In this document: positions 4,648 through 57,943 of the stretch, in pieces
How the letters are laid out: each line of letters begins with the position of its first letter
Numbering within the stretch: the first letter of the stretch is position 1
Source: Klebsiella pneumoniae
GTDB taxonomy: Bacteria > Pseudomonadota > Gammaproteobacteria > Steroidobacterales > Steroidobacteraceae
Length of the DNA stretch: 64,000 nucleotides
Reading direction: 5' to 3'
NCBI GenBank assembly: GCA_945873095.1
Contig: CAMCBU010000011.1
Span: 1 to 64,000 of the forward strand
Program-made: the position numbers and the translations under genes
The notes under the pieces: model-generated
Database searches by the model: none
Told to the model about the DNA's origin: nothing
Seen by the model: only the letters and a program-made list of their open reading frames with translations

Positions 4648-4654
4648 GGCGTTT

Positions 4655-4682: not shown

Positions 4683-4749
4683 GAACGATCATTCTATTAC
4701 CAATTCATGTGTCGGTCGCGAATTTTCGGACGGGGGCCATCGACGAATC

Positions 4750-18348: not shown

Positions 18349-18352
18349 CGCC

Positions 18353-28004: not shown

Positions 28005-28466
28005 CTATTGAGTCACCATGAACCGGCTGATGGTATCAGCGACACAGCCCGGGCGTTCACTTCCCTCTATTTCGATCGTGACCCTCACCACGACTTGGAC
28101 GCCACCTGAGACCGCCGAGACGCTCAGAATCTCGCCACGACCGCGTATTCGGCTGCCAACCCGCACGGGTGCCGGGAAACGCACACGATCAAGTCCGTAG
28201 TTGATCCCCATTCCCGAGACGTCGACGCGCATCAGCTGTGGCAGGAAGAGACTCGAGAGCGATAGCGTCAGGTAGCCATGGGCAATCGTGCCACCAAATG
28301 GACCTTGCTTGGCACGCTCGACATCCACGTGAATCCATTGATGGTCGCCCGTTGCCTCGGCAAACGCGTTGACCCGCTCTTGCTCCATCGCGATCCAATC
28401 GGTGACGCCGAGATCGCGTCCGACTGCGGCCGTCAGCTCCTCGACCGACTTGAATACCGTGGTCAT
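28005..28466 (-). CDS. MaoC-like (R)-specific enoyl-CoA hydratase
   Basis: A 153-residue single hot-dog protein with the hydratase-2 motif in FAEATGDHQWIHVDVERA, where Asp and His are the catalytic pair, followed by GPFGGTIAHGYLTLSL. It hydrates enoyl-CoA to (R)-3-hydroxyacyl-CoA, typically as a dimer. It overlaps ipdF by four bases (ATGA). Here it probably acts in beta-oxidation of the HIP-derived acyl-CoA or of a steroid side chain. Single-domain MaoC proteins in steroid clusters sometimes need a partner, and none is seen beside it. Confidence 0.86.
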   Translation of the reverse strand: MTTVFKSVEELTAAVGRDLGVTDWIAMEQERVNAFAEATGDHQWIHVDVERAKQGPFGGTIAHGYLTLSLSSLFLPQLMRVDVSGMGINYGLDRVRFPAPVRVGSRIRGRGEILSVSAVSGGVQVVVRVTIEIEGSERPGCVADTISRFMVTQ

Positions 28467-30443: not shown

Positions 30444-31606
30444 GCAGCCTCCGTCGAATCATCGAGACCGATCAAACGCGCGATCCGCTCGCGATGGACC
30501 GCAGGTACACCGAGCAGGTTGTAGGTTGCGCGCGCACGCTTGAAAAACAACTGGGCGTCGTACTCCCAGGTGAAACCGATACCGCCATGCAATTGGATGG
30601 CATTTCCCGCTACGTCGTGGAAGCCAGCCGAGCAGTACACTTTCACCAATGCGGCCGCCTCGGCCAGCTCATGCCGATGTGTCTCACGGTCGAGACGATA
30701 TTCATCGACGACACACGCCGCGTAATAGACCGCCGACCGTGCAGCCTCGCAGATCACCATCATGTCGGCGAGTCGATGTTTGATCGCTTGAAAACTACCG
30801 ATCACACGACCGAATTGAACACGCTGCGATGCATAGCTCGTAGTGAGATCTAACACCGCTTGCATCGAGCCCAACTGCTCGGCCGCCAAAGCGATCTGAG
30901 CGATCTGCAAGCCACGCTCGATGCACTCCCCAGCGTCAGCGGCGAGTAACGTGAACTCCCTGACGCCCTCGAGAACCAATCGCGCATACGGACGCGTGAG
31001 ATCCATCGCCGGTTTTTTCTCGATACCGAGGCCTGATTTCGCGCTCTCAACAACCACAACTGCATAACCGTCATGTCCGCTGCGGCGGTCTCGCACCGCG
31101 AGGACGAACTGATCGGCGATGTGTCCATTGAGCACGAATGAGGCAACGCCATCGATGCGCAGACCACTCGCGTCGTCACTCAATGTCGCCGAGATGGCCT
31201 GCAGGCCCGAAGCGCCACGATCGTCAGTGACTGCCAGAGCCGCAACGGACTCGCCGCTTGCCAATTTGGCAAGAACGTCATCCCGTGCAGCCGAGGCCGG
31301 GCACTCCAACAACAGGGCGGTTGCCAGACCGCAAGAGGCGAGTAACGGCCCACCGTAGAGCGCGCGCCCCTGCTCCTCGAGTACGATGGCAAGTTCAACC
31401 ATCCCAAGCCCGCTACCGCCGACCGATTCGGGCAAGGACAAGCCGGTCCAACCTAACTCACCGGCGATAGTTCGCCATAGATCAGGGTCGTGACCCTCCG
31501 CGCGCTGCATGTCATGACGCAGTTGTTGCGACCCACAGCGCTCGGTCATGAACTCGCGAGCCGAGTCGCGAATCATGTTTTGATCATCGGTAAATGAAAA
31601 TTGCAT
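30440..31606 (-). CDS. Acyl-CoA dehydrogenase subunit (FadE32/33-type partner)
   Basis: A 388-residue acyl-CoA dehydrogenase: SFTDDQNMIRDSAREFM at the N-terminus, GWTGLSLPESVGGSGLG, QRVQFGRVIGSFQAIKHRLADM and a C-terminal QLHGGIGFTWEYDAQLFFKRA. It lacks the C-terminal GGTxxIQR tail of its neighbour, a pattern seen in one subunit of heterotetrameric steroid acyl-CoA dehydrogenases. ATG 31606 is used; GGGGA lies upstream and a GTG at 31619-31621 is less likely. It is coupled to fadE30 (ATGA) and is probably part of an alpha2beta2 complex with that or another FadE in the unit. Confidence 0.8.
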   Translation of the reverse strand: MQFSFTDDQNMIRDSAREFMTERCGSQQLRHDMQRAEGHDPDLWRTIAGELGWTGLSLPESVGGSGLGMVELAIVLEEQGRALYGGPLLASCGLATALLLECPASAARDDVLAKLASGESVAALAVTDDRGASGLQAISATLSDDASGLRIDGVASFVLNGHIADQFVLAVRDRRSGHDGYAVVVVESAKSGLGIEKKPAMDLTRPYARLVLEGVREFTLLAADAGECIERGLQIAQIALAAEQLGSMQAVLDLTTSYASQRVQFGRVIGSFQAIKHRLADMMVICEAARSAVYYAACVVDEYRLDRETHRHELAEAAALVKVYCSAGFHDVAGNAIQLHGGIGFTWEYDAQLFFKRARATYNLLGVPAVHRERIARLIGLDDSTEAA

Positions 31607-31608
31607 GA

Positions 31609-32514
31609 TTAGGTTCCCCACACTTTCTTTTGCGGCGGACGTTGCGCGAGTAACGCGATGACCGCCTCACCCACCTCATCGGGGCGCCACCGGGCGCCCT
31701 TATCCACGGTCGGTCCGTCGTTCCAACCATTGGCGAGCGTAATTCGCCCACCTTCGAGGTCGAACACCACCCCGGTCACATCACTCGATTGCGCGCTGCC
31801 GAGCCACACGACAACGGGCGCGATGTTGGCAGGATCCTGCTTATCAAAACCGTCGGACGGCGCGCGCATCTTGTCGGCGAACGCCTGCTCGGTCATCCGT
31901 GTTCGCGCCGCCGGAGCGAGCGCGTTGGCCGTGATGCCATAGCGCTTCAGTTCAGCAGATTGCACGAGCGTGAGACTCGCGATACCGCCTTTTGCCGCCG
32001 AATAAACGCTCTGACTGAGACTGCCTTGTAATCCAGCGCCCGAGCTGGTGTTGATGATGCGTGCGTCGACGGGACGCCCGGCTTTCTGTTCAGCACGCCA
32101 ATACGAAACCGCATGACTCGTTACACAGAAGTGACCGCGCAGATGGACGCGAATGACGGCATCCCACTCATCGAGCGTCTGACTGACAAACATCCGGTCG
32201 CGAACGAAGCCGGCGTTGTTGACGACGACATCCAACCGACCGAACTCGCGCAAAGCGGTTTGTATGAGATTGGCGGCACCTTCCCAGTCAGCCACATCGT
32301 CGCCGTTGGCCACCGCCTCGCCGCCGGCAGCGCGAATCTCGTCCACTACCGCCTGCGCCGTGGTGAGGTCACGCCCCTCTCCGCCAAGGCTGGTGCCCAA
32401 ATCATTGACGACGACCCGAGCGCCCTCAGCGGCGAAGGCCAGTGCATATTCACGACCGAGCCCGCGTCCAGCGCCGGTGATGATCACCACTCTTCCCTGA
32501 CAAATGCGTTGCAT
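31609..32514 (-). CDS. SDR-family enzyme resembling Rv3548c (multifunctional-type 3-hydroxyacyl-CoA dehydrogenase)
   Basis: A 301-residue SDR: GAGRGLGREYALAFAAEGA at 14-32, a VVVNDLGTSLGGEG insertion typical of HSD17B4-like members, NNAG, and Tyr171/Lys175 (YSAAK). The extended C-terminus (about 50 residues) is a feature of this subgroup. It resembles Rv3548c, which belongs to the mycobacterial KstR2 regulon. A 3-hydroxyacyl-CoA oxidation in HIP side-chain or ring-opened chain beta-oxidation is likely. AGGGGA lies eight bases before the start. It sits between fadA6 and the fadE pair. Confidence 0.8.
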   Translation of the reverse strand: MQRICQGRVVIITGAGRGLGREYALAFAAEGARVVVNDLGTSLGGEGRDLTTAQAVVDEIRAAGGEAVANGDDVADWEGAANLIQTALREFGRLDVVVNNAGFVRDRMFVSQTLDEWDAVIRVHLRGHFCVTSHAVSYWRAEQKAGRPVDARIINTSSGAGLQGSLSQSVYSAAKGGIASLTLVQSAELKRYGITANALAPAARTRMTEQAFADKMRAPSDGFDKQDPANIAPVVVWLGSAQSSDVTGVVFDLEGGRITLANGWNDGPTVDKGARWRPDEVGEAVIALLAQRPPQKKVWGT

Positions 32515-41361: not shown

Positions 41362-41467
41362 GCAAATACCCCGTTTTTTCGCACGGCACCGTTTTCGTTG
41401 AAACGGCGCTTTTGAAGGATCTATTTTGCGCGATTATGGCATTGGATGTGGTCCGAATCATCACTTT

Positions 41468-41495
41468 CGTCAATTTCGGGTACCGTTTTTTACGC
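41468..41495. promoter_or_regulatory. Operator D: degenerate 28-bp site between hsaC and an OYE gene
   Basis: The right half TTTTTTACGC at 41486-41495 is perfect, and its extension CAATTGCTTG resembles that of the site at 17042. The left half is decayed (TTTCGTCAA at 41465-41473, core shifted by one base). It lies 106 bases before hsaC and 73 before the OYE gene. It is assigned by position and the intact right half; it could be a weaker or different site. Confidence 0.5.
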
Positions 41496-41568
41496 AATTG
41501 CTTGTCCGCCCCGTCACGAGAGGCACATAATCTGGCAAGTTCAGCTCTGCCCCCGCAGGAGTCGCGAG

Positions 41569-42819
41569 ATGTCGTCCACCGGAACACCTGAATCTGTCGG
41601 TCTTGCCGCCGCTTACTCCCCGCTGCAATTAGGCCCGATCGAATTGGCAAATCGGTTCGTCAAAGCCGGCACCTACGAGGGGATGAACGTCGCCAACGCG
41701 CCAAGCCAAGCGCTGCTCAAACATCATGTCGATATCGTCCGCGGAGGTGTCGCCATGACCACCTTGGGATACACCGCCGTCCACCCAGATGGACGCACCT
41801 TCGCCGAGGAAAGTTGGATCGACGCCGATAATGCCCGCGCATTTCGCGCGTTGACGCAAGCGGTACACGCCGCTGGTGGCAAGGTATCGCTGCAACTCGG
41901 CCATTGCGGGACGATGACCCGCACGCCGAACCGAACCATTCGAAAACCCGGCGGACCGTCGAAGACGCTGAACTTGTACGGCGCCATGGTCGGCGCACTC
42001 CTCACGCGCGAGATGACGACCCAAGACATCCGCGATGTCATCGAGCAGTTCGTCGATGCTGCCAAGCATGCCGCCGACGCCGGCTTCGATGCGGTCGAGT
42101 TGCATATGGGGCACGGCTACCTGCTCAGCCAGTTCCTAAGCCCGCTCGCCAATCGTCGAACGGATGCCTACGGTGGCAGTGCCGAGAATCGCGCCCGACT
42201 GCCCCGAGAGATCACCGAGGCCGTGCTCGATGCCGTGGGCGATCGCATTGCCGTCGTCGCGAAGTTGAACTTGCGCGACGGCGCTCGCGGAGGCGTCGAG
42301 ATGACTGACTCGATCGTGACCGCTCGCGCGCTGGAATCAGCGGGACTGCATGGGCTCGTCATGACGGGCGGGTTTTCACCCTACTCACCCATGTACCTCT
42401 TCCGAGGTAACTCACCCGTTCCAGCGATGCTTCAAACCGAGACCAGCCGCTGGAATCGCTTTTTGTTGAAACTCGGCGCGAAGACTGCGTTCCGAGATAC
42501 GCCGTTCGAAGAGATGTATTTTTTGAAGCATGCTCGTCAAATGCGCGAAGCCGTCCGCTTGCCGCTCGGATTACTCGGCGGGGTTCGAAGCGGTGACAAC
42601 GTGACGCAAGCCATGAAAGATGGTTTCGACTTCGTGGTGCTCGGCCGACCCCTGCTGGCCGAACCCGACTTCGTGCAACGCCTCCAGCGCGACGCATCGG
42701 CGCATTCAAGCTGCATCAATTGCAATCGCTGTGTCGCCGAGTTTTCGACGCCTGGCGGTGTACGGTGCGTGTTGAATGGGCCGAACGATCCTGCGCTCAA
42801 CGCGCGGCGGGCTGCCTGA
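41569..42819 (+). CDS. OYE-family NADH:flavin oxidoreductase with Cys cluster, lacking the FAD/NAD domain
   Basis: A 416-residue TIM-barrel flavoprotein: VSLQLGHCGTMTRT, the His-x-x-His site in ELHMGHGYLLSQFLSP, NRRTDAYGGSAENRAR and FVVLGRPLLAEPDFV. The C-terminus carries Cys382, Cys385, Cys388 and Cys400, the spacing of the [4Fe-4S] site of 2,4-dienoyl-CoA reductases. The FAD/NADH domain of that family is absent, so a separate electron donor may be needed. AGGAG precedes ATG 41569; an upstream start is rejected as it would extend through the promoter. It probably reduces an enone or dienoyl group of a steroid intermediate. It overlaps the convergent SDR by 23 bases. Confidence 0.85.
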   Translation: MSSTGTPESVGLAAAYSPLQLGPIELANRFVKAGTYEGMNVANAPSQALLKHHVDIVRGGVAMTTLGYTAVHPDGRTFAEESWIDADNARAFRALTQAVHAAGGKVSLQLGHCGTMTRTPNRTIRKPGGPSKTLNLYGAMVGALLTREMTTQDIRDVIEQFVDAAKHAADAGFDAVELHMGHGYLLSQFLSPLANRRTDAYGGSAENRARLPREITEAVLDAVGDRIAVVAKLNLRDGARGGVEMTDSIVTARALESAGLHGLVMTGGFSPYSPMYLFRGNSPVPAMLQTETSRWNRFLLKLGAKTAFRDTPFEEMYFLKHARQMREAVRLPLGLLGGVRSGDNVTQAMKDGFDFVVLGRPLLAEPDFVQRLQRDASAHSSCINCNRCVAEFSTPGGVRCVLNGPNDPALNARRAA

Positions 42820-43639
42820 AAGAGCGCTGGAAATCGAAAGTCGGCGCATCACCCGCCACTATTTTTGCGATCCGCTCCGGCACTGCAGGCAGCATATCCG
42901 GGTGTGGGAATACCCAGAACTTTCCAGCCTCAATGGCCTGAAAGCTGATCAGAGCAACGTCGCTCGGCGCCATTCCCACCCGCTCCGAACCGGCGCGCAT
43001 GGCCGCCATCAAATGTTTTGAAGTGACATCACTTGGCTCGGTATCGAAGATGCCGGTTTTAACGGCGCCTGGTGCCAGCAACGACACGCGGATCGGCGCG
43101 CCAATCGCGGCGAGATCAAGGTGCAAGGTCTCGGCGATCGCAATCACCGCCGCCTTGCTCGCCGAGTAGGCAGAGAGCATCGGTGATGGAATCAGCCCGC
43201 CCATCGAGCCGGTGATCAAAACGTTCGAAGCTGCCCCACGTGCGAGCATGTCAGGCAAGAACGCACGGATCGCATTCACGACGCCTTTGACGTTGATATC
43301 GAGTAACGCGTCGAAATCGGCGGCAGCCATTTCCCAGACTCGCCCGGGAGTCAGAACCCCCGCGTTGCAGCAAAGCAGATCCACGCCACCGAACATCGTC
43401 TTCAGTTCAGCCGACACCCGATCGAATGCGGCCACGTCGCGCACATCGAACACACGGCTATGGACGCTAGCCGCGCTGCCGGCTGCTCTGGCCATTTCGA
43501 CCGTTCGTGCAACCGTGTCGGCCCGATAATCACACGCGACGAGATGCATCCCACGCCTTGCCGCTTCGAGGGCGAGCGCTGCCCCGATACCGCTACCGGC
43601 ACCGGTAATAAGCGCGACCTTATCGCTGAGGTCGGACAT
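42797..43639 (-). CDS. SDR-family oxidoreductase at the end of unit F-minus
   Basis: A 280-residue SDR: TGAGSGIG (12-19), CNAG, Tyr158 and Lys162 (YSASK), and a hydrophilic C-terminal tail of about 35 residues. ASP in VACDYRA suggests NAD. It follows the Rieske gene by eight bases and converges on the OYE gene with a 23-base overlap. It is last of the ligase-amidohydrolase-Rieske-SDR unit. Substrate unknown; likely a hydroxyl or ketone formed by the adjacent Rieske enzyme. Confidence 0.85.
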   Translation of the reverse strand: MSDLSDKVALITGAGSGIGAALALEAARRGMHLVACDYRADTVARTVEMARAAGSAASVHSRVFDVRDVAAFDRVSAELKTMFGGVDLLCCNAGVLTPGRVWEMAAADFDALLDINVKGVVNAIRAFLPDMLARGAASNVLITGSMGGLIPSPMLSAYSASKAAVIAIAETLHLDLAAIGAPIRVSLLAPGAVKTGIFDTEPSDVTSKHLMAAMRAGSERVGMAPSDVALISFQAIEAGKFWVFPHPDMLPAVPERIAKIVAGDAPTFDFQRSFRQPAAR

Positions 43640-43647
43640 CCGACGGT

Positions 43648-44763
43648 TCAGCGCGCCTGCCGCACGTACGAGCGATTGACCTCGCTACCGCCCTCGTCGT
43701 TTGGCCACTCTGCGTAGAACTGTCGATAGTATTTACGAAATGCCGCGATCGGACCGTCGCCGTCACACAACAGCGCGTCGGGGGTGTATCGCTGACGATC
43801 CCAAACGACCTTGTCTTGATCAAGCTGCCGGCAAATATCTTTGACCATGGCGCGTGCGACCCCTGCAGACGGACCATCGATGGCCGACTTCAGTTGCGTG
43901 AAGGCAAAGCGAACGTGCGTGCAGTCTGGAGCGATGGGCGTGATTCCCGCCACCATCAAGGTTTCGCAGATTCCCGTGAACCGCGTCCACGCCTGCCCTG
44001 CACCCACCGTACCGTACGAAATCGTCCCGTCGACATCGCCACGCGGTGTCGCCATCTTGGCGGCCACCGACGCGACGCGCCGGATCCCTTCGAACTTCAC
44101 ATCGTAGTTCGGCATGCTTGCAGTGCCATGGATGTAGCGAAAATGCGCAGCGTCCACGCCGTTCTCAGCCATGTTTTGCAGGGGCCCCCACACCAGCCAC
44201 TCATGCTTCTCGTATTCACTCCAGTCGGGTGAACTGGCCTCCGGTAAGTCTTCAACCTCAAAATTGGGCTCTGCATTCTCCGGGTGGTACCACGCCCAAA
44301 TAAAGCGATTGCGTTCGACGAGACGCCACGGCCGGACACAGCTACGTTTCGCCTGTGGCGGAATCACCTTCGCGTAAGGGATCTTGGTGACCTCGCCGCT
44401 ACCGTTGTATTGCCAGGCGTGAAAGGGGCACTCGAGATCATTACCCTGCACACGGCCCGCGTGACCCATGTGGGCGCCCAAGTGACGACAGTAGGCATCG
44501 ACCATGCGAGGGACGCCATCCTCACCGCGCCACAGCGCGAGCTCTCGGTTGAAGTATCGAAGCGGCTTTACCTCGCCAATCTTCAACTCGTCCGAATAGC
44601 TCACGACGAACCAACCAAACGGCATTGGCAAATCGATACCGCGCTCGGCAGCGGGTCTCGGATTATCTAGCGGCGCCATGCGCCATTGGAGTAACTCGTC
44701 TTTGGAAAATCGAGTCAGGTATTGACGGGCAGCGGTGTTCGAAGCGATTTCCTCTTGGCTCAT
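43648..44763 (-). CDS. Second KshA-type Rieske oxygenase
   Basis: A 371-residue Rieske non-heme oxygenase. The [2Fe-2S] ligands are Cys92/His94 (YCRHLGAHMG) and Cys112/His115 (ECPFHAW). The mononuclear site is MAENGVDAAHFRYIHGT with Asp204, His207 and His212. It is KshA-like in length and layout but distinct from the protein at 18353-19426, with a longer N-terminus and no insertion between the iron-sulfur ligands. ATG 44763 overlaps the amidohydrolase stop. It may hydroxylate a different steroid position or a differently substituted nucleus. No reductase gene is adjacent. Confidence 0.85.
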   Translation of the reverse strand: MSQEEIASNTAARQYLTRFSKDELLQWRMAPLDNPRPAAERGIDLPMPFGWFVVSYSDELKIGEVKPLRYFNRELALWRGEDGVPRMVDAYCRHLGAHMGHAGRVQGNDLECPFHAWQYNGSGEVTKIPYAKVIPPQAKRSCVRPWRLVERNRFIWAWYHPENAEPNFEVEDLPEASSPDWSEYEKHEWLVWGPLQNMAENGVDAAHFRYIHGTASMPNYDVKFEGIRRVASVAAKMATPRGDVDGTISYGTVGAGQAWTRFTGICETLMVAGITPIAPDCTHVRFAFTQLKSAIDGPSAGVARAMVKDICRQLDQDKVVWDRQRYTPDALLCDGDGPIAAFRKYYRQFYAEWPNDEGGSEVNRSYVRQAR

Positions 44764-45638
44764 GATGACAGTCCTCCAAACAGCCGTGCGGCATTGTCGT
44801 GCAAGAAAAGCGGCCAGACGTTGTCTTTGAAAGGCACGTCCGGAAGCTCTCGGAAAATTCGCTCCAAAGAAAGACCCATCGGCCAATATCCCGCGTACAT
44901 GATGCGATCGGCACCGCGGGTGTTGGCGTAATTGATGATGGCTTTCGGGTAGTGCTTGGGCGCAAACGCGCTCGTCGAGTAATAAAGATTCGGCCACTTC
45001 AACATCAGCTTGACGGCCAGCTCTTCCCAAGGCTCTGCACCGTGACGCATCACGAACTTCAACTCCGGAAAAAACCAACACACCTCATCGACGAGCTCCG
45101 CATGCTGCGGCGCCATCGGCAAGCGAGGACCCGGCACACCGACATTGACGAAGATTGGCAAGTCCAGATCGACGCAAGTTGCGTAAATCGGGTACACCTT
45201 CTTGTCGTTGATTGGCACTTGCGGGTTGTTACCGCAAGGAAAGAAGCTCACGGCTTGGATGCAACCCGCTGCATGAAGACGGCGGATCTCCCGTACATCT
45301 TCCATTCCGCGATTGGGATTGACGTGATAGTCGAACAAGAAGCGATGCGGATACGCGGCACGCGCTCGCTTCACCCCTTCCGAACCTTCCCAATAGCCAA
45401 CTAGGCCCCGCGCGATCCCAAATCGATCCATTTCTTTGACCGTGAAGTCGACATAGTCGGAATCGGTCGGCAGCACCGGAATGTCCTTAAACATATATTG
45501 CGCAGGCATCTTGAACGCCTCGCGACTCTGCTGATCAAGCAACAGCGGCAGGTACGGTGTGTACCATTCCGTGTTGGTAGCGCTGACGGGAATCCCCATC
45601 ATCAAATCAATAACTTTGGCGCCTTGCGGGAAACCCAT
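44760..45638 (-). CDS. Amidohydrolase_2-family protein lacking the usual HxH motif
   Basis: A 292-residue TIM-barrel protein of the ACMSD/amidohydrolase_2 type: FDYHVNPNRGMEDVREIRRL, LKFVMRHGAEPWEELAVKLM, ADRIMYAGYWPM and FLHDNAARLFG near the end. The N-terminal metal-binding His-x-His expected after the first strand is replaced by VIDLMMGIPVS. The metal site is therefore altered or absent, which occurs in a subgroup of this family. AGGAGA precedes ATG 45638. It lies between the CoA ligase and Rieske genes. A decarboxylase, hydratase or hydrolase on a ring-cleaved acid is possible; I do not assign a reaction. Confidence 0.75.
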   Translation of the reverse strand: MGFPQGAKVIDLMMGIPVSATNTEWYTPYLPLLLDQQSREAFKMPAQYMFKDIPVLPTDSDYVDFTVKEMDRFGIARGLVGYWEGSEGVKRARAAYPHRFLFDYHVNPNRGMEDVREIRRLHAAGCIQAVSFFPCGNNPQVPINDKKVYPIYATCVDLDLPIFVNVGVPGPRLPMAPQHAELVDEVCWFFPELKFVMRHGAEPWEELAVKLMLKWPNLYYSTSAFAPKHYPKAIINYANTRGADRIMYAGYWPMGLSLERIFRELPDVPFKDNVWPLFLHDNAARLFGGLSS

Positions 45639-45644
45639 GATCGG

Positions 45645-47372
45645 TCACTCTCCTAAATGCATTCGTCGCAGAAAGACTTTATCGACCTTATCGAGATGAT
45701 TACGAACCAACGGAGTCATCTGCACTCGCACCTCGGTCGGTACCTTGTAGGCAGCCAAATGCGCGCCCACGAACTGCTGAACTTGTTCCGCAGCGACGGG
45801 GCCAGCAGACGCGTGCGGCACCACCACTGCAACGAGCCGCTCACCGAGTCGCGGATCCGGCACGCCATAGGTGGCAGCTTCGGCGAGATCCGGATGCGCC
45901 AACAACACTCGCTCGACTTCGGCGCAGTAAATGTTTTCGCCAGCGGAAATCACCATGTCTTTCTTACGATCGACGATGTACAAGAAGCCCTCGGCGTCGA
46001 CATAACCAATGTCGCCTGATCGCATATAGCCTTCGCTATCAAAGGCGCGAGCCGTTTCTTCTGGATCACCCCAATAGCCAAGCATGTTCGAGGCCGATCG
46101 AAGGCAAATTTCGCCCGGCTCGCCACTCTCGGCGAGACTACCGTCTTCCCGAACGATCTTGACCTCGGTGGTCGCTAGCACGCGACCTGCGGTAGCTGGC
46201 CGCTTGAGGTACTCCTCGCCCACGGACATGGCGACGGCACCGGTCGTTTCCGTCATACCGAAACCGGTCCCAGGCACCGCACGCGGAAACGCCTTGGTGA
46301 TCTCGGCAAGCAGCCCTTTCTGCAGCGCCTGTCCACCCGTCGACACGCTGACCAGAGAGTCCAACTTGTATTGAGCAAGATCCGGCGACTTCAAAAGATC
46401 CCACATCATGGTCGGAACGCAGGGGAACTGCGTGACCTTTTCACTCTCGATCAAGCTCAAGGCCGTTGTGGCATCCCAGCGTCGCATCAGAACGACCTTG
46501 CCACCCCGCGCCAGCGTCGAGAGCAACCCGGTATGCAAACCACTCGTGTGAAAGAATGGAAACATCAACAGCATACTGGTCTGGGGCGACATCGCCGAAA
46601 GCTGTTGCAAAGAAATCCCGTACCGAGCAGCCATATCCATCGCGATACGGTAACCGGCATACAAATTGGTCCAAACCGAGTTGCAGGTGCCGAGTTGACT
46701 GAGCACAGCCCCCTTGGCTCGGCCAGTGGTGCCCGAAGTAAACAGGATGGTTGCTGGATCGGCCGGCTGCAACACGGGCGCAGCAACGGCGGGCGAATCT
46801 GGCAGTGGCGACTCGGCTGGTGATGCCAACACGTCATCGAGGCGCAGCGCTCCCGCGCCTAGCGCGACCTCCACTGCCGCGCGCTCCCGTGCCGACTCCG
46901 ACTCGGGCAAAGCAACATCAACAGCGACGATGACCGGAACCTTCGTAACATGAGCGGCCAACTCGCGACCACAGCGACTATCGACCATCATCAAACAAAC
47001 GCCGATCGAATCGCGCGCCGCAGCCAACTCCTCACCGGCCGCGCGGCTGTTGAGCACCACCGGCACCGCTCCAAGTCGGGCGAGCGCCAGGAAGCAATGA
47101 ATCCAGTCTGGAATATTGCGCATCGCAAGGCCGACGCGACTGCCCGCACCGATGGCGTATCGCTGTCGCAGGGCATGGGCGATCCGATCGACCTTGCTCG
47201 AGACCTCACGATACGAGAGGCGCTGGCCTGAGTAGACGATGCAGGTGGCATCCGAATCCCAAGGCGCCGCCTGCAGCAACGCCGGTAGCGTCCGCGGTGC
47301 GTTTCGGAAAATGCGACACCGAACCCCGCGGAAAACCTCGTCGGTCAGTTCAAACTGAGCTTCCGTTGACAC
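45645..47372 (-). CDS. AMP-dependent acyl-CoA synthetase
   Basis: A roughly 575-residue ANL ligase: ILFTSGTTGRAKGAVLSQ, MFPFFHTSGLHTGLLST, GTGFGMTETTGA, GDIGYVDAEGFLYIVDRKKD and ISAGENIYCAEVE. The last motif is degenerate (NHLDKVDKVFLR instead of NxxGKxxR) but keeps a lysine. GTG 47372 is preferred, with AAGGTGG five bases before; GTG 47381 is also possible. It heads the ligase-amidohydrolase-Rieske-SDR unit from operator F. It is distinct from the FadD3- and FadD19-like enzymes, so a third carboxylated steroid or fragment is implied. Confidence 0.83.
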   Translation of the reverse strand: MSTEAQFELTDEVFRGVRCRIFRNAPRTLPALLQAAPWDSDATCIVYSGQRLSYREVSSKVDRIAHALRQRYAIGAGSRVGLAMRNIPDWIHCFLALARLGAVPVVLNSRAAGEELAAARDSIGVCLMMVDSRCGRELAAHVTKVPVIVAVDVALPESESARERAAVEVALGAGALRLDDVLASPAESPLPDSPAVAAPVLQPADPATILFTSGTTGRAKGAVLSQLGTCNSVWTNLYAGYRIAMDMAARYGISLQQLSAMSPQTSMLLMFPFFHTSGLHTGLLSTLARGGKVVLMRRWDATTALSLIESEKVTQFPCVPTMMWDLLKSPDLAQYKLDSLVSVSTGGQALQKGLLAEITKAFPRAVPGTGFGMTETTGAVAMSVGEEYLKRPATAGRVLATTEVKIVREDGSLAESGEPGEICLRSASNMLGYWGDPEETARAFDSEGYMRSGDIGYVDAEGFLYIVDRKKDMVISAGENIYCAEVERVLLAHPDLAEAATYGVPDPRLGERLVAVVVPHASAGPVAAEQVQQFVGAHLAAYKVPTEVRVQMTPLVRNHLDKVDKVFLRRMHLGE

Positions 47373-47466
47373 CCCGACCACCTTGTTGTGGAATGTGTCG
47401 ATAGTAGCAGTTGCAAGCCTAGAAACAACGTTTTCGACGGCTAATCGAGCTTGCGACCGTATAAAT

Positions 47467-47494
47467 GCGTAAAGTTGATGGTCAACTTATACGC
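47467..47494. promoter_or_regulatory. Operator F: 28-bp inverted repeat, most symmetric copy
   Basis: GCGTAAAGTTGA at 47467-47478 faces TCAACTTATACGC at 47482-47494, so symmetry runs almost through the centre. A leftward promoter is embedded: TTGACC at 47485-47480 and TATACG at 47463-47458, 16 bases apart. A bound protein would cover the -35 of the ligase unit. It lies 35 bases before the rightward SDR start. Confidence 0.78.
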
Positions 47495-47529
47495 AAATGC
47501 AATGCGGCGATAGCCGCCGGGGGATGACG

Positions 47530-52270: not shown

Positions 52271-53349
52271 TGCAGCCCTCGAATCGCCTCTTCGAACCGC
52301 TTCAGCTCGGCGACATCACATGCCGCAACCGTATCTTCATGGCGCCAATGACGCGCAGTCGAGCGGATTTGCAGGATTGTCCGACTGACCTGCATGTCAC
52401 GTACTACTCGCAACGGGCAAGCGCCGGCTTGATCTTCTCGGAGGGAATTCAACCTTCGATTCACGGCAAAGGATATGCGCGAACGCCCGGTCTGCATTGC
52501 GCAGAGCAAGTCGAGGCGTGGCGTCGCGTGAACGAGGCGGTAAGCGCGCACGGCGGCACGATGGTCGCGCAGCTGATGCACACCGGTCGGATCGGTACGC
52601 ATCACAACAAGGCGGCGGACGCTCGAACGGTAGCGCCGTGCGCCATCCGTGCGAACATTGAACTGTTCACCGACACAGCAGGTATGCAGCCCTGTGACGC
52701 GCCCGAGGCCCTATCGGCGGCCGGGATCGCCAACGTCGTACAGGAATATGTCGATTCGGCCCACATGGCCAGAGCGGCCGGCTTTGCCGGTGTCGAACTG
52801 CATTGCACGAGCGGCTATCTGCCCATGCAATTTCTCGCGCAAAACACCAATCTGCGCACGGATCGGTATGGTGGTAATGCGAGCGGTCGCGCCCGTTTCA
52901 TAATCGAAGTGCTCGAGGCCCTGACGAATGCCATCGGAGCCGGACGTGTCGGCCTTCGTATTTGTCCCGGCAATCCTTTCAACGATGTGCTGGACGTCGA
53001 CCCGAACGAGACTTACCGCACTTTGCTGGAAGCCATTCGCCCGCTCAATTGCGCCTGGGTGCACGTCATCGCTTCACCGGATAAATCGCTCGATGCTTTC
53101 GCGTTGGTTCGTCGACACCACGATGGTGTGCTGGTCATCAACGACGGGTTCGATCCACACACGGCAGCCGCCGCGTTACAGGCGCAGGTTGGCGATGCCG
53201 TGTCTTTTGGTCGCCACTACATTGCCAATCCGGACTTGGTCGAACGTATCGCCGGCGAGATTCCCTTGAGTCGGTTCGATCGCAAGACGCTCTACTCGCC
53301 CGGCCCCGCAGGCTACGTCGACTACCCGCCACATCAGGCGCAATCGTGA
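52270..53349 (+). CDS. Old yellow enzyme-family flavin oxidoreductase with variant active site
   Basis: A 359-residue single-domain OYE: NRIFMAPMTRSRADLQ, GTMVAQLMHTGRIG, LRTDRYGGNASGRARFI and VSFGRHYIANPDLV. The substrate-anchoring His-Asn/His pair is altered: GVELHCTSGYLPMQF has His followed by Ser where Asn or His is usual. Such a change could alter enone binding. Class OYEs reduce alpha,beta-unsaturated ketones, and a delta-4-3-ketosteroid or dienone is a plausible substrate. ATG 52270 overlaps the SDR stop. Confidence 0.85.
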   Translation: MQPSNRLFEPLQLGDITCRNRIFMAPMTRSRADLQDCPTDLHVTYYSQRASAGLIFSEGIQPSIHGKGYARTPGLHCAEQVEAWRRVNEAVSAHGGTMVAQLMHTGRIGTHHNKAADARTVAPCAIRANIELFTDTAGMQPCDAPEALSAAGIANVVQEYVDSAHMARAAGFAGVELHCTSGYLPMQFLAQNTNLRTDRYGGNASGRARFIIEVLEALTNAIGAGRVGLRICPGNPFNDVLDVDPNETYRTLLEAIRPLNCAWVHVIASPDKSLDAFALVRRHHDGVLVINDGFDPHTAAAALQAQVGDAVSFGRHYIANPDLVERIAGEIPLSRFDRKTLYSPGPAGYVDYPPHQAQS

Positions 53350-54773
53350 AGCGATCATCTGCGTTGCTTGCAAGTGCGACTCTCGCGCTGCTGCTTCCCT
53401 GCGCGTACGCCGCAACCGAGACTCCGTCGATTGAGGATGAAAGAGCCGCCGCCCGGCTTGCGGTCTATCGCGAGAATCCGTTTCTGCGACAAGCCGTCAG
53501 CCGCGTAGATGGCTTTGGCAACGTGACCTCGTTCGCCATCGCCAACCGGATGTACAGCCGCACTGATCCGGCGGCACTCGCCGATGCAGCCCAGAAATTG
53601 TCGATAGAGAAACAGGCTGACGGCGTTTGGCTACTGCGCTTTCCCTGGGTCAACGTCGCGGTATTCGAAACTCGTGATGGCCTCGTGCTGATCGACTCAG
53701 CCTATGCACCGGCGGGTCCAGCTCTGCTGGCTGCTTTGCGCTCACTGAGTACGAAGCCCGTGCACACCATCGTCTACACCCATCATCACATCGATCACAT
53801 GCTAGGTGCCTGGGCCTTGCTCGAGGCTGGCGAGCAGCCGCAGATCATCGCGACCGCTGCGCTTGCGGAGGAAGTCGGTCGTGATATTCGTTCGCGCGAA
53901 TTCACCTCACGACTCAACAATCAACGCCTGAGCGACTTTCCGCGCAGCCTCGACGATCTGCCGATGCCCACCCGCACGTTCCACGATCGATTGGAACTGC
54001 AAATCGGCGACGACCGTTTCATTCTGCAGCATGCCCCCGGGGAAACGGTCGACCAGTTATGGGTATCGGTACCCACGCGAAAAACCGTCGTGATCGCCGA
54101 CTACTTCCAACCGTTCCTGCCGAATGCAGGCAATGGCAAGCGACGACAGCGTTATGTCGAAAGTTGGGCATGCGCCTTGCGCAAAATGGTGGCCGAGAAG
54201 CCGGAAATCGCCCTACCGATGCATGGCCCAGCACTGACTGGACAATCCGAAATTGCCAAGCGACTCGGCGCTCAAGCGCGGATGCTCGAGAGTATCGCCG
54301 AGCAGACCCTAAGCGCACTCAACGACGGTGCGAGAAAATACGTGGTCGCAGACACCGTGGCTCTACCTGCCGAGCTAAAAGACAATCCGGATGCGGCGGA
54401 GCTTTACAGCACGCCCGCCGACATGTCGCGAACCATCACGCAGGAATACTCCGGTTGGTGGAATGAACTACCGTCCGAATGGTCTCCGGTCAGTCGCGCG
54501 CGGCAAGCACGCGAAATCATTGAGCAGGGTGGCGGTCTCGATAAGTTCCTTACTCGGATTGCGACCTTGCGCGATAGCGATATTGCCCTCGCCTGTCATT
54601 TAGCCGATTGGGCCTGGTTAGCCAATCCTACGAACGAGCAGGTCCTACGCGTCAGCACAGAGGTCTGGCTGCATCGACTGAGAACCACCCTCATACCGAC
54701 CCAAGAGGCGGTGGAATATGTCGAGCATGTCGTTACGCTTCGGCAGCAAATTGACCGTCTCACGCAGCACTGA
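53346..54773 (+). CDS. Exported metallo-beta-lactamase-fold hydrolase, alkylsulfatase-like
   Basis: A 475-residue protein with signal peptide (SSALLASATLALLLPCAYA). The MBL motif is THHHIDHMLGAWAL (His146, His148, Asp150, His151). The C-terminal helical part with DIALACHLADWAWLANPTNE resembles the dimerisation region of SdsA1/BDS1-type alkylsulfatases. Those enzymes hydrolyse sulfate esters in the periplasm. GTG 53346 overlaps the OYE stop (GTGA). With the sulfatase at 59797 it suggests use of sulfated steroids. The MBL fold is certain, the sulfatase role moderately supported. Confidence 0.78.
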   Translation: MKRSSALLASATLALLLPCAYAATETPSIEDERAAARLAVYRENPFLRQAVSRVDGFGNVTSFAIANRMYSRTDPAALADAAQKLSIEKQADGVWLLRFPWVNVAVFETRDGLVLIDSAYAPAGPALLAALRSLSTKPVHTIVYTHHHIDHMLGAWALLEAGEQPQIIATAALAEEVGRDIRSREFTSRLNNQRLSDFPRSLDDLPMPTRTFHDRLELQIGDDRFILQHAPGETVDQLWVSVPTRKTVVIADYFQPFLPNAGNGKRRQRYVESWACALRKMVAEKPEIALPMHGPALTGQSEIAKRLGAQARMLESIAEQTLSALNDGARKYVVADTVALPAELKDNPDAAELYSTPADMSRTITQEYSGWWNELPSEWSPVSRARQAREIIEQGGGLDKFLTRIATLRDSDIALACHLADWAWLANPTNEQVLRVSTEVWLHRLRTTLIPTQEAVEYVEHVVTLRQQIDRLTQH

Positions 54774-56283
54774 AAGTTGGGCGACGCGCAGCCCATGGCA
54801 TCGCTTGTTCGAGCTGACGTGCTAGCGATAACAGCGTTGCTTCGTCGGCAAACCCACCGGTGAACATCACGCCGAGTGGCAAGCCTTCCGAGGAAAGTCC
54901 CGTCGGCAAAGAAATCGATGGTTGACCCGTCACATTGGCAAGAGACGTAAAGGGTGAAAACGCAGTCACGTCCGCCGCGTACTGCGCGAAGTTTCGCGGC
55001 GACAAACCGAGCTTACCCAACGCGACAGGTGCTTGCGCCAAAGTCGGCGACAACAGCAAATCCCATGTCTTGAAAAACTCGGCAGACTGTCTGGCCGCAA
55101 CATCCAGTGTGGTTTCGGCAGACGCGAACGCAAGTCCGTCGATTTTTTTGCCCGACTGCGCGATTAGCCAGGTCACCGGCTCGACATCCTCGGGCGTACA
55201 GAGTCGCCCCAGTTGCGCTTCACGATCTCGTAGTGCGGCTAGCGTCTGTACGGCAATGATCGTCCCGAAAGCGGCTGTATACGCCTTGTAGTCGATGCTT
55301 GGGGTCGCGATCTCGACATGGTGTCCGAGTTGTCGGCAAACCTCGACTACGCGATCGACGGCACGCTCACACTCAAAGTCCACGGCCGCACCGGAGAGCG
55401 GCGCCGCGAGTCGCGCGATTCTCAGTGGTCGGGGATTCGAGGCGATCGCCCTAGCGAACGTCTCGGGCGCCGGCGCCTGCAAAACCGAAGCACCCGCCTC
55501 AGGCCCTGCTACGGCATCTAGCAACCGTGCTGCATCTCGAACGCTACGCGTGACCGCGAAATGGGTACTCAAACCGCCCCATCCCTGATAACGCCGAATG
55601 GGAAATGGCACGCGACCCCGTGAGGTCTTCAAGCCAACCAGACCACAACATGAGGCCGGTATGCGAATGGAGCCACCGCCGTCACTGGCGTGCGCGATCG
55701 ACACCATCCCTGAACTCACTGCAGCAGCCGATCCACCGGACGAGCCGCCAGCCGTGCGATCGAGACGCCACGGATTGTGGACATCGCCGTGCAGCGCCGA
55801 CTCGGTGGTAGTGGTGAGACCAAACTCCGGACTTGCCGCTTTTCCCACAATGACCAATCCCGCACGCCTAAACCGCGCGATCAACTCACCATCATGGTCG
55901 TAGCGAAAGCCTCGAAAGAATCGACTGCCGTTGGTGACCTCGGTATCGGCCATAGCGACCCAAAGATCCTTCAACAAGAACGGCACACCCGCGAACGGCG
56001 CGGCCGCATCGATCGACGCAATCGATTGTTCGGCTAGCTCGTAGTGCTGCAAGGTCACCGCGTTGACGATGGGATTCAACTCGGTGATTCGTCGTATGGT
56101 TCGATCGAGCAATTCCCGCGCACTGATCTCTCGCGCTCTTACCAAATTCGCTAATCCGGTCGCGTCCAACGCGTCCAGATCATCCCAGTGACCTGCGGGG
56201 GTTGCGGTGGCTGCAAGTCCCGACGCGGCCGCAGCAGCAGCCAAGGAACCCACGAATGTGCGTCTCGACAAGTCGGTCGACAT
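54760..56283 (-). CDS. Tat-exported amidase signature-family hydrolase
   Basis: A 507-residue amidase. The N-terminus has a twin-arginine signal (SRRTFVGSLAAAAAASGLAA). The catalytic triad is Lys105 (FLLKDL), cis-Ser181 (GGSSGGS) and Ser205 (GGGSIRIPA). The enzyme should hydrolyse amide or related bonds in the periplasm. ATG 56283 is chosen as the Tat signal begins there. The gene is second in the leftward unit from operator B and overlaps the convergent MBL gene by 14 bases. In a steroid regulon, cleavage of an amide-conjugated steroid such as a conjugated bile acid is a reasonable but unproven idea. Confidence 0.88.
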   Translation of the reverse strand: MSTDLSRRTFVGSLAAAAAASGLAATATPAGHWDDLDALDATGLANLVRAREISARELLDRTIRRITELNPIVNAVTLQHYELAEQSIASIDAAAPFAGVPFLLKDLWVAMADTEVTNGSRFFRGFRYDHDGELIARFRRAGLVIVGKAASPEFGLTTTTESALHGDVHNPWRLDRTAGGSSGGSAAAVSSGMVSIAHASDGGGSIRIPASCCGLVGLKTSRGRVPFPIRRYQGWGGLSTHFAVTRSVRDAARLLDAVAGPEAGASVLQAPAPETFARAIASNPRPLRIARLAAPLSGAAVDFECERAVDRVVEVCRQLGHHVEIATPSIDYKAYTAAFGTIIAVQTLAALRDREAQLGRLCTPEDVEPVTWLIAQSGKKIDGLAFASAETTLDVAARQSAEFFKTWDLLLSPTLAQAPVALGKLGLSPRNFAQYAADVTAFSPFTSLANVTGQPSISLPTGLSSEGLPLGVMFTGGFADEATLLSLARQLEQAMPWAARRPTFSAA

Positions 56284-56290
56284 GTTAGAG

Positions 56291-56917
56291 CTATCTGACC
56301 TTGATTTTTGGAGCCGCAGCTCCGCGGCGCATCTGCTCGATGAATTCATTGAGTGGCGCCGGCTCGACGACATCCGCATCCGGAGGGCCGCCGCGATCCC
56401 AAAACTCTTGCCAGGTCGGAAACAAGGAGTGGTAGCCCCCCTCGTAAGACTCCACGCCAGGCCAGCGCATTTTCAGCTCACCAAGTGGCGGCTTGTTCAG
56501 ATCGGTGGCATACCAATACAGGGGCAGTCGACGCTTGAAGTACCAGCGTCCCATTCGGCGTTCGTAGTCATCGACATACATCATTTGCATGATGACCCAC
56601 TCTGTCGGGGTCTCATGCTCGTTCTTTGAGTAAACGACTCCGCGCGCGTGATCAACGTCGGCAAACTCGATGATGTGATTGCCAATATGGTGGGAGGTGC
56701 CGGTGAACTGCACGCGGAGAGTTTCGTCCAACCAATCACGCAGTGCGCGGCGGCCACGGCTCTCGCGGCCCACCCGAACATCATCGACGAACAAGCCCGC
56801 TAGAGCATCGAGATCGCGCATATCGAGTGCCAGGCCGTAACGAGCGGGCAGTTGCCGAATTTCCTCGATCGACTCGAGCCGATCCAGTCGAGACTCGATC
56901 GAAACGGACTTGTCCAT
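56291..56917 (-). CDS. SnoaL/NTF2-like protein
   Basis: A 208-residue protein whose first 140 residues have the SnoaL-like/NTF2 fold: RLESIEEIRQLPARYGLALD, LAGLFVDDVRVG, SHHIGNHIIEF and VDDYERRMGRWYFKRR. Ketosteroid isomerase shares this fold, but the catalytic Tyr/Asp pattern of KSI is not obvious here, so that name is not given. The C-terminal 60 residues (FWDRGGPPDADVVEP, then NEFIEQMRRG) are an added tail. GGGGG precedes ATG 56917. It heads the leftward unit from operator B and precedes the Tat amidase. Confidence 0.78.
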   Translation of the reverse strand: MDKSVSIESRLDRLESIEEIRQLPARYGLALDMRDLDALAGLFVDDVRVGRESRGRRALRDWLDETLRVQFTGTSHHIGNHIIEFADVDHARGVVYSKNEHETPTEWVIMQMMYVDDYERRMGRWYFKRRLPLYWYATDLNKPPLGELKMRWPGVESYEGGYHSLFPTWQEFWDRGGPPDADVVEPAPLNEFIEQMRRGAAAPKIKVR

Positions 56918-56944
56918 GTCGTTACCCCCGTAAGACCGTTGTTT

Positions 56945-56972
56945 TCGTAAATATAGTCGTTTATTTCTACGA
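56945..56972. promoter_or_regulatory. Operator B: 28-bp inverted repeat with variant outer base
   Basis: TCGTAAA at 56945-56951 faces TTCTACGA at 56965-56972; the CGTA and TACG cores are 22 bases apart as in the other copies, while the outer G/C pair is T/A. A TAAAAT-like element follows at 56981. It lies 27 bases before the SnoaL-like start and 59 before hsaG. Confidence 0.68.
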
Positions 56973-57031
56973 ATTGGTAATAAAATACAGCGAAAAACCG
57001 GTGCGTTTCGCATCTGAGACGGGGCTAGAAC

Positions 57032-57943
57032 ATGCAATCCAAAATCAACGCCGCCTTGATTGGCTCGGGAAACATCGGCACAGACTTGATGGTCAAGGCC
57101 CTGCGCAGTGCCGAGATCAACCCGGTATGGATGGTCGGGATCGATCCCGCCTCAGACGGTCTTGCCAAAGCGCGTGAACGCGGTCTCAAGACGACCGACC
57201 AAGGCGTCGACGGTCTGATGCCACACATCGCTCGGGACAACATCCGCATCGCCTTCGATGCGACCTCGGCCTACGTCCACCATGAGAATGCGCGCAAGTT
57301 ACAGGCGGCGGGCGTCGTGGTGATCGACCTGACTCCAGCAGCCATCGGCCCCTTTTGCGTTCCACCGGTCAATCTCGCTGAGCACGCCGGCCGTCGCGAG
57401 ATGAACGTCAACATGGTGACTTGCGGTGGTCAGGCAACCATTCCGATGGTCGCCGCCGTCAGTCGCGTGCAACCAGTTGACTACGCGGAAATCATTGCCA
57501 CGGTCTCCTCGCGCTCGGCAGGACCCGGGACGCGCAAAAATATCGACGAGTTCACGCGCACTACGGCGCTCGGTATCGAGTTGGTTGGCGGCGCCAAACG
57601 CGGCAAGGCCATCATCATCCTCAACCCCGCCGAACCTCCTTTGATCATGCGCGATACCGTTCACTGTCTCACGGCAGGCGAACCCGATCGAGAAAAAATC
57701 ATTGAGTCGGTACACCGCATGATCGGCGACGTGCAAGGTTATGTTCCCGGCTATACCCTGAAGAACGGTCCCGTTTTCGATGGTAACCGCGTGTCGATTT
57801 ATCTCGAGGTTGAAGGCCTCGGCGACTACTTGCCGAAGTACGCTGGTAATCTCGACATCATGACCGCCGCAGCACTCAGAACGGCAGAAATGCTGGCCCC
57901 TGAAATCGCGGCCGGTCACTACGCCAAGGGAGAACAGCGATGA
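57032..57943 (+). CDS. hsaG: Acetaldehyde/propanal dehydrogenase (acylating), HsaG/TesF
   Basis: A 303-residue NAD-dependent acylating aldehyde dehydrogenase of the BphJ/HsaG type: [13 protein letters not shown] at 8-20, catalytic Cys131 in [23 protein letters not shown] and [15 protein letters not shown]. With HsaF it forms a channelling complex that converts the aldolase aldehyde to propionyl- or acetyl-CoA. The ATG of hsaF overlaps its stop (ATGA). It heads the rightward unit from operator B and continues with hsaF, an SDR and the sulfatase. Confidence 0.88.

Follow-up and report, generated by a model that had tools for sequence, protein, structure and literature searches.

Four genes are read on the minus strand from 47381 to 42797 of the 64,000-nucleotide stretch of DNA analysed here (the window): an AMP ligase (45645-47381; 578 aa, GTG start), an Amidohydro_2 protein (44760-45638; 292 aa), a second KshA-type Rieske protein (43648-44763; 371 aa from its ATG) and an SDR (42797-43639; 280 aa). 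The intergenic gaps are 6, -4 and 8 bases, and we therefore read the four genes as one operon. The ATG of the Rieske gene overlaps the amidohydrolase stop by 4 bases; the list of open reading frames gives a longer frame for it, reaching to 45081. Open reading frames and Pfam domains bear out this unit as it had been described in an earlier, sequence-only reading of the window, which had also proposed that its products may break down an altered steroid nucleus or an alternative ring fragment.

The ligase (Pfam AMP-binding, 254 bits) is distinct from the FadD3- and FadD19-like ligases, as that reading had held, with 32% identity to the FadD3-like protein and 27% to the ligase at 19427-21058. Among the best 25 of 106 NCBIfam models, the top-scoring was NF052580, CasG (steroid-24-oyl-CoA synthetase), at 366 bits, which is far below the cut-off of 750. 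In small, hand-picked protein sets, the ligase and two side-chain ligases of sphingomonads are each other's best matches (41-44% identity). We infer that it is an SclA-like, AMP-forming steroid acyl-CoA ligase that would activate the C24 carboxyl.

The Rieske protein carries both a Rieske domain (70 bits) and a KshA_C domain (94 bits), and when aligned with KshA it has the CRH..CPFH cluster and the D..H....H iron ligand motifs. The description of it as a second KshA-like oxygenase thus stands, at 29% identity to the other KshA of the window; it is 57-58% identical to two sphingomonad side-chain Rieske proteins. The other KshA, at 18350-19426, is closer to true KshA, scoring 193 bits versus 123 bits against PDB KshA and 199 versus 94 bits for KshA_C.

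The Amidohydro_2 match of the third protein (75 bits) covers only residues 94-288. To place this protein we used an alignment and tree of the window protein and its counterparts from 56 of 79 related loci. The N-terminal His-x-His, reported earlier as missing, is indeed missing: none of the 57 aligned members has one within its first 40 residues. At the metal-Asp position in the last strand (FGTDxP), 56 of the 57 have Tyr (Tyr251 in the window protein) and one has Gly, while a His199-x-x-Glu202-Pro motif is invariant throughout. Among paralogues in the same genome, two also lack His-x-His and two retain the Asp at the metal position. The predicted structure (pLDDT 92.8) has 3irs_A as its top PDB match (Z 26.8). 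It shares the TIM-barrel of Amidohydro_2/ACMSD-type decarboxylases and of the LigJ hydratase (2dvt, 4ofc, 2gwg, with BB4693, 3irs, nearest), with Z of 18.6-26.8 across 239-262 residues. Unlike these enzymes, the window family has no His-x-His, has Tyr in place of the metal Asp and has the invariant His199-x-x-Glu202-Pro.

Neighbours of the amidohydrolase gene were counted in those 55 of the 79 loci whose flanks extend for 1.5 kb or more to either side. For 44 of the 79 the count took positions 8001-8850 as the match; the true matches all start at 8001 and end at 8744 to 8867. In 18 of the 55, a homologue of the Rieske protein as well as a ligase of SclA type is encoded within 5 kb; 27 lack any Rieske, SclA-like or Hsa/Ipd neighbour at that distance, which indicates that the amidohydrolase family reaches far beyond the side-chain pathway. 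One clade adjoins HsaA and HsaC instead, and the window's amidohydrolase does not share a clade with that of a metagenome-assembled genome which bears the label Novosphingobium sp. Chol11 (L035). Many actinobacterial relatives of the amidohydrolase alone stand without Rieske, ligase or steroid neighbours; the genes flanking the family member in two actinobacterial loci (L049 and L059) and in L033 pointed to no consistent function.

Between the ligase and a divergent SDR at 47497 lies a 30-bp palindrome, TGCGTA-N18-TACGCA (47466-47495), which we regard as a putative operator. The core GCGTA-N18-TACGC occurs four times in the window (4655, 17042, 22509 and 47467), each time between or at divergently read genes, consistent with the earlier claim of an operator in common with ring-degradation promoters. 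The site at 4655 falls inside the first bases of a listed SDR frame (3850-4692), whose listed start may be too early. With gaps of 10-24 allowed there are five matches in the window versus 0.66 expected, a number reached in none of 100 shuffles; the fifth match, at 3412, has a gap other than 18. In 22 hand-chosen proteobacterial loci, TGCGTA-Nx-TACGCA was sought at every spacing x of 0 to 40, and all 11 occurrences have x = 18. When two mismatches are allowed, a spacing of 18 is not special in the window, with six matches at 18, six at 40 and five at 29. The same site lies between SDR and ligase in seven related loci (L012, L013, L014, L016, L019, L020 and L022). In sphingomonads, it precedes the acyl-CoA dehydrogenase (ACAD) pair in L028; in L091 it lies upstream of the Lrp pair, with an ACAD gene on its other side, and in L113 homologues of HsaA and HsaC flank it. 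An inner palindrome, AAGTTGA-N3-TCAACTT, was considered as the common operator and set aside in favour of the outer one, since it has a single site in the window. A search of open-licence literature yielded no published description of TGCGTA-N18-TACGCA. The four genes stand outside the 9,10-seco ring scheme yet under its putative operator, as had been noted, and they probably act on steroids.

The closest counterpart of the operon is a side-chain cluster of sphingomonads. In Sphingobium lactosutens (L028) the gene order is ligase, amidohydrolase, Rieske, amidase, SDR, MFS, Lrp, Lrp, ACAD, ACAD, and these ten genes equal in number the Chol11 tags from Nov2c230 to Nov2c221. The 2021 work of Feller reportedly describes a CoA ligase, an ACAD, a Rieske monooxygenase and an amidase encoded in one side-chain cluster, with Nov2c228 said to hydroxylate at an unknown site. 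Within the Chol11 series, Table 1 of a review places SclA at Nov2c230, Bsa at Nov2c227 and Scd4B/Scd4A at Nov2c222/221 (PMC8399759), the Rieske enzyme is given as Nov2c228 (PMC12175502), and two contiguous Lrp genes are described (PMC12882949). By gene order the window Rieske protein would be Nov2c228-like, and we propose that it is a steroid C17 hydroxylase. When 54 window proteins were compared with 23 hand-picked from Sphingobium sp. TomMM15 and Novosphingobium sp. ES2-1, mutual best matches were obtained for the ligase (41-44%), amidohydrolase (59-60%), Rieske protein (57-58%), amidase (48-49%) and Lrp pair (49% and 42%). According to the published accounts, an sclA mutant of Chol11 is slow in degrading C5-side-chain steroids and unaffected on side-chain-less ones (PMC8540908), and C. 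tardaugens on cholate induces a cluster that includes an amidohydrolase (about 21-fold), a monooxygenase, Scd4AB and SclA (PMC12882949).

Conservation of the four-gene block was borne out in part: ligase, amidohydrolase and Rieske genes stay together, and the SDR is not kept as the fourth. Nothing seen in other genomes assigns the three core genes to an unrelated pathway; in Proteobacteria they occur together, often beside steroid genes. The SDR (adh_short, 159 bits) is 47-64% identical in close relatives whose Rieske protein is 77-93% identical. Among 16 longer loci (L012-L015, L017-L021, L024, L026-L028, L032, L039 and L042), the best-matching SDR directly follows the Rieske gene in four (L012, L013, L014 and L017) and was not found there in the other 12, of which L020 carries a different SDR in that place. 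Among shorter loci this SDR follows the Rieske gene in L004, L005 and L006 and not in L007 or L008. On these comparisons we regard the SDR as a variable, accessory member of the unit.

Further homologues of the side-chain cluster lie elsewhere in the window, all on the minus strand. The homologue of the amidase at the Bsa position (54760-56379; PF01425) and two Lrp/AsnC regulators (27035-27990, with an HTH_AsnC domain in the gene at 27511-27990) are mutual best matches of their sphingomonad counterparts, for the Lrp genes the TomMM15 side-chain pair. An ACAD pair (29253-31621) resembles the proteins at the Scd4A and Scd4B positions and sits in a ring-cluster (ScdC-type) place; its members are 63% and 42% identical to side-chain ACADs and 57-61% and 41-44% to ring ACADs. 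Our first reading of this pair as Scd4AB was weakened by these near-equal identities and by the ring-cluster order of Novosphingobium ES2-1. The protein at the Scd4A position has one strong match in the genome (64%, in this pair), the next being 38%, which together with the ring-cluster order suggests that a dedicated Scd4AB is absent here; the pair possibly serves both ring and side chain. A MaoC hydratase (28005-28466) matches the ring-cluster MaoC at 56%.

The canonical side-chain pathway of Proteobacteria and Actinobacteria runs through StdA1/CasG, Scd1AB, Shy1, Sal1, Sad, StdA2, Scd2AB, Shy2 and Sal2/Ltp2. No ChsH2/Shy2-type OB domain exceeded the Pfam cut-off in the genome, the one match (21.7 bits, cut-off 27.1) lying in an HMG-CoA-synthase-like frame. 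A comparison of 13 of 296 genomes, with the HsaA-positive G002, G012, G060, G075, G153 and G178 left out, showed the domain absent over the cut-off from the block genomes G000, G201 and G077 and present in G259, G010 and G102, and present in all five block-less ring degraders (G106, G118, G126, G152 and G265) as well as in G133 and G160, which have the amidohydrolase and no close Rieske match. Mutual exclusion of block and ChsH2 was therefore dropped, at three of six block genomes lacking the domain versus none of five block-less ones and with few genomes compared. Of the block genomes, G077 has no HsaA at E<=1e-60 and G010 has an HsaA match of just 40%. An SCP2-type thiolase on contig C18 of this genome was considered as a substitute for Sal/Ltp2, which it may yet be; it scores 179 bits with acetoacetyl-CoA thiolases versus 60 bits with the Ltp2-type lipid-transfer protein 6ok1, and the genes around it carry no steroid family name.

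The gene-for-gene match to the sphingomonad cluster and the dispersed homologues argue for a C5 side-chain module and against a modified-ring branch, and we consider it probable that the operon is a member, in what is probably a gammaproteobacterium, of the Chol11-type alternative C5 bile-acid side-chain module. Like the Chol11-type cluster, compared here through S. lactosutens, TomMM15 and ES2-1 and, for Chol11, through its printed order, the window has adjacent ligase, amidohydrolase and Rieske genes and homologues of the amidase, two Lrp proteins and ACAD pair, though these lie outside the operon; the 30-bp palindrome also recurs in L028 and L091. Unlike that cluster, the parts in the window are scattered over a single large ring cluster, the operon has an additional SDR gene and there appears to be no dedicated Scd4AB. 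With the canonical pathway, the likely common first step is CoA activation by a CasG-like ligase; the differences are the lack of a ChsH2-type OB domain over the cut-off in this genome and, as we propose, an oxygenase and an amidohydrolase-fold protein in place of hydratases and aldolases.

One scheme that would accommodate these genes begins with the ligase, whose activity has been reported in print for SclA of Chol11 and which here would make the steroid 24-oyl-CoA. An ACAD, probably the pair at 29253-31621, would then form the delta-22 enoyl-CoA, and the Rieske enzyme would hydroxylate C17; the published account calls a hydroxylation probable and gives no position. Finally, the amidohydrolase-fold protein, having lost its metal ligands, would break the C17-C20 bond through His199/Glu202 in a vinylogous retro-aldol reaction, yielding a 17-ketone and a C5 enoyl-CoA (pentenoyl-CoA) in one cut, with the SDR as an accessory. 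We offer only tentatively the idea that this protein is a metal-free C-C lyase that removes the whole C5 side chain of a 17-hydroxylated delta-22 24-oyl-CoA and so replaces two rounds of beta-oxidation. Such a one-cut scheme would explain how Chol11 manages without canonical hydratases and aldolases; according to a review, that strain has neither Shy1, Sal1 and Sad nor the C3 side-chain enzymes (PMC8399759).

One may postulate a stepwise route instead, in which a MaoC protein hydrates the delta-22 bond, aldol cleavage gives a C22 aldehyde and acetyl-CoA, and retro-aldol cleavage of the 17-hydroxy-C22-aldehyde gives the 17-ketone and propanal, the amidohydrolase-fold protein performing one or both cleavages. 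The window does hold a MaoC hydratase, the C. tardaugens cluster has a putative MaoC, Shy1 (PMC12882949), and the known proteobacterial route runs through a C22 aldehyde (PMC8399759). The window MaoC, however, matches that of the ring cluster, and Shy1 and Sad are among the proteins listed as absent from Chol11. No annotated MaoC occurs in the examined side-chain stretches of TomMM15 and ES2-1, though an annotated enoyl-CoA hydratase and hypothetical proteins do; the two small proteins that follow the ACADs in TomMM15 have their matches among 4HBT thioesterases. On balance, we regard this route as rather unlikely.

A role in breaking down an altered nucleus or an alternative ring fragment, in which the Rieske protein would hydroxylate the rings of unusual steroids, would fit the putative operator in common with ring operons, the amidohydrolase clade that adjoins HsaA and HsaC, and the KshA relationship of the Rieske protein; yet that protein is distant from the window's KshA in both identity and KshA_C score, the nearest named ligase family is CasG, and sequence and order of the core three are common to the sphingomonad side-chain cluster, so that this part of the sequence-only reading now seems improbable. 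Still less probable, in our judgement, is that the amidohydrolase deconjugates glyco- or taurocholate, as proposed for C. tardaugens EGO55_16305 (likened here by description), with the Rieske hydroxylation unrelated. The authors of that proposal report the cholate induction described above (PMC12882949), but they also state that their protein has no secretion signal, and a separate amidase homologue occupies the Bsa position in sphingomonad clusters and has its counterpart here. The missing His-x-His and replaced Asp in every aligned member, by Tyr in all but one, further make metal-dependent deconjugation unlikely.

Removal of the bile-acid side chain by sphingomonads without canonical hydratases, aldolases and aldehyde dehydrogenase is described in print as "unknown", "mostly" or "largely unknown" (PMC8399759, PMC8540908, PMC12175502). 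Clusters of the kind described here were already known; here the amidohydrolase is named as the likely cutting enzyme, the sources cited above having suggested only deconjugation for an amidohydrolase. Gammaproteobacteria, Rhodospirillales and sphingomonads have this three-gene core in common and, in part, the operator too, which marks these three proteins as a conserved core and makes the chemistry of cleavage accessible to assays with purified proteins and a single substrate. If the proposed lyase activity is true, the protein would found, inside the amidohydrolase superfamily, a family of lyases that work without metal.

Its predicted proteins mark the window as a large 9,10-seco steroid cluster. 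HsaA-, HsaB-, HsaC-, HsaD- and KstD-like proteins are present, all under the curated NCBIfam cut-offs, together with a FadD3-family ligase that exceeds its cut-off, HsaE/F/G-type enzymes (NCBIfam) and KshA (18350-19426; Pfam and PDB matches). IpdA, IpdB, IpdC, IpdF, EchA20 and FadA6 are our own names, assigned from general families and a gene order parallel to that of Sphingobium sp. TomMM15, to whose genes the IpdA, IpdB and IpdC candidates are 55-61% identical. The four-gene operon observed in the sequence-only reading is confirmed within this cluster: an AMP ligase, an amidohydrolase, a second KshA-type Rieske oxygenase and an SDR are closely packed on the minus strand (47381 to 42797), with a 4-base overlap of the amidohydrolase and Rieske genes. 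An old-yellow-enzyme-type reductase (41446-42819, plus strand) is convergent to the operon, shares 23 bases with the end of the SDR gene, and is retained next to the block in related loci L012-L015. The steroid cluster also contains a sulfatase (59797-62115, plus strand) and a protein that combines a metallo-beta-lactamase fold with an alkyl-sulfatase dimerisation domain (53346-54773, plus strand), perhaps for sulfated bile acids.

The earlier suggestion that the four genes degrade a modified nucleus or ring fragment gives way, on gene order and mutual best matches, to their probable identity as a bile-acid side-chain module. In Sphingobium lactosutens (L028) the order is ligase, amidohydrolase, Rieske, amidase, SDR, MFS, Lrp, Lrp and two acyl-CoA dehydrogenases (ACADs); Sphingobium sp. 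TomMM15 keeps this order but without an MFS gene, and Novosphingobium sp. ES2-1 has a reduced form of it with a single ACAD. For Sphingobium sp. Chol11, the tags of the ligase SclA (Nov2c230), the amidase Bsa (Nov2c227) and the ACADs Scd4B (Nov2c222) and Scd4A (Nov2c221) are printed in Table 1 of PMC8399759, Nov2c228 is the Rieske monooxygenase with a presumed side-chain role (PMC12175502), and two contiguous Lrp genes lie within the cluster (PMC12882949). Because the ten L028 genes match ten Chol11 tags, and the order agrees wherever it is printed, Nov2c229 is probably the amidohydrolase. When the 54 window proteins were compared with 23 picked TomMM15 and ES2-1 proteins, the ligase, amidohydrolase, Rieske, amidase and Lrp pair were mutual best matches, although the picked set included no sphingomonad KshA and such matches fall short of a full orthology test.

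The claim that the operon shares its operator with the ring genes proved right. The palindrome TGCGTA-N18-TACGCA has two exact copies, at 22508 and 47466, and two with a single mismatch, at 4654 (just inside the 5' end of an SDR ORF as listed) and 17041; each lies at or between genes that are read divergently. The core GCGTA/TACGC at gaps of 10-24 gave five matches in the window, one of which (3412) differs in gap, versus 0.66 in shuffles, none of 100 reaching five; at gaps of 14-22 only, four were observed (shuffle mean 0.53, maximum 3). Across 22 proteobacterial loci, picked because they carry either the ring cluster or the block, the 12-base form was found 11 times at gaps of 0-40, in every case with a gap of exactly 18. 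Sites lie between SDR and ligase in L012, L013, L014, L016, L019, L020 and L022 (in L019 and L020 they fall inside a ligase ORF that is listed too long). Three sphingomonad loci also have the site: L028 ahead of its two ACAD genes, L091 upstream of its paired Lrp genes, and L113 between the homologues of HsaA and HsaC; the predicted operator is thus common to Gammaproteobacteria through sphingomonads. A weaker copy with two mismatches lies at 56944, at the gene of a SnoaL_4 protein (56291-57037, minus strand; 77 bits) divergent from HsaG; the SnoaL_4 protein may be a 7-hydroxysteroid dehydratase (Hsh2-like).

A related-locus search with the amidohydrolase returned 79 loci, the closest named records being a Steroidobacteraceae MAG (L011, 95% over the amidohydrolase) and Gammaproteobacteria MAGs, so that the window probably comes from a gammaproteobacterium. 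Among the 55 loci with at least 1.5 kb on each side, a Rieske homologue lay within 5 kb in 23, a ligase best matching that of the operon in 20, and an Hsa or Ipd homologue in nine; 27 had none of these, 21 of them with actinobacterial titles. Conservation of the four-gene block held for its first three genes, as ligase and Rieske were both near the amidohydrolase in 18 of the 55 loci (all with proteobacterial titles), but not for the SDR, which in 12 of the 16 longer loci is not the gene after the Rieske and in close relatives was 47-64% identical where the Rieske was 77-93%. In 296 genomes of the order, the amidohydrolase (E<=1e-40) was found in eight, HsaA (E<=1e-60) in 16, including five of those eight, and a Rieske match (E<=1e-60) in eight. 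The six with a Rieske of at least 64% identity all carry the amidohydrolase, and five carry HsaA (just 40% in G010), G077 being without it. A separate amidohydrolase clade (L031, L036, L037, L038 and L041; support 99/98) lies beside HsaA and HsaC homologues with no SclA-like ligase within 5 kb; in the tree, two of its records bear the label Myxococcota and three just that of proteobacteria. Actinobacterial L043, L046, L048, L049 and L052 have several neighbouring or tandem amidohydrolase-family copies, with an adjoining CoA-transferase III in L049.

No ChsH2-type OB domain, which marks the canonical C3 side-chain module, was found above cut-off in the window's own genome, as expected if that module is absent, nor in block genomes G201 and G077. 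Such domains are present in three other block genomes, G259 having a full ChsH2-like protein, and in all five block-less ring degraders tested, a contrast in the right direction but too small for proof. The own genome also holds a second acyl-CoA cluster on contig C18 (2874-11664; ACAD, HMG-CoA-synthase-like protein, SCP2-type thiolase, SDR).

The amidohydrolase is predicted to form an Amidohydro_2 TIM barrel (pLDDT 92.8, pTM 0.92), nearest among solved structures to BB4693, an uncharacterised protein (3irs; Z 26.8, with 262 residues at rmsd 2.8), followed by other amidohydrolases, decarboxylases and LigJ at Z of about 18-22. None of 57 aligned family members has His-x-His in its first 40 residues; position 251, which we take from general features of the superfamily and alignment to two paralogues to be that of the metal or catalytic Asp, is occupied by Tyr in 56 members and by Gly in the other; and seven residues (Asp11, His199, Glu202, Pro203, Lys210, Lys214 and Tyr220) do not vary. 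By itself, loss of His-x-His is not special, since the two paralogues, distant proteins of the same genome (34% and 32% identity), also lack it while keeping the Asp. Joint loss is rarer, though in the printed alignment BB4693 is likewise without the Asp, and the enzyme may work without metal.

The sphingomonad side-chain route has been termed largely unknown (PMC12175502), and the account of Chol11 in PMC8399759 reports that Sal1, Sad, Sal2 and Ltp2 homologues were not found. Hydroxylated compounds are present in sclA and scd4A mutants, with the side-chain-related hydroxylation probably due to Nov2c228 (PMC12175502). In C. tardaugens an amidohydrolase is induced ~21-fold on cholate, for which the authors suggest deconjugation, describing the monooxygenase's role as unknown (PMC12882949). 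We propose that a delta-22 24-oyl-CoA side chain would put C20 at the gamma position of the enoyl thioester, such that, with a C17 hydroxyl, the C17-C20 bond could break by vinylogous retro-aldol to give a five-carbon enoyl-CoA and a 17-ketone, as in the C19 steroids of the pathway. For this a ligase, dehydrogenase, hydroxylase and lyase would suffice, and these four make up the conserved gene set; C17 as the hydroxylated position and the amidohydrolase as the lyase are both our inference.

Although this kind of side-chain module was already known from sphingomonads, its occurrence with the shared operator outside that group is, as far as the pathway literature consulted goes, new, as is the apparent loss of metal ligands throughout the amidohydrolase family; together with these, the proposed cleavage would give an unsolved step of the pathway a specific chemistry that can be put to the test.
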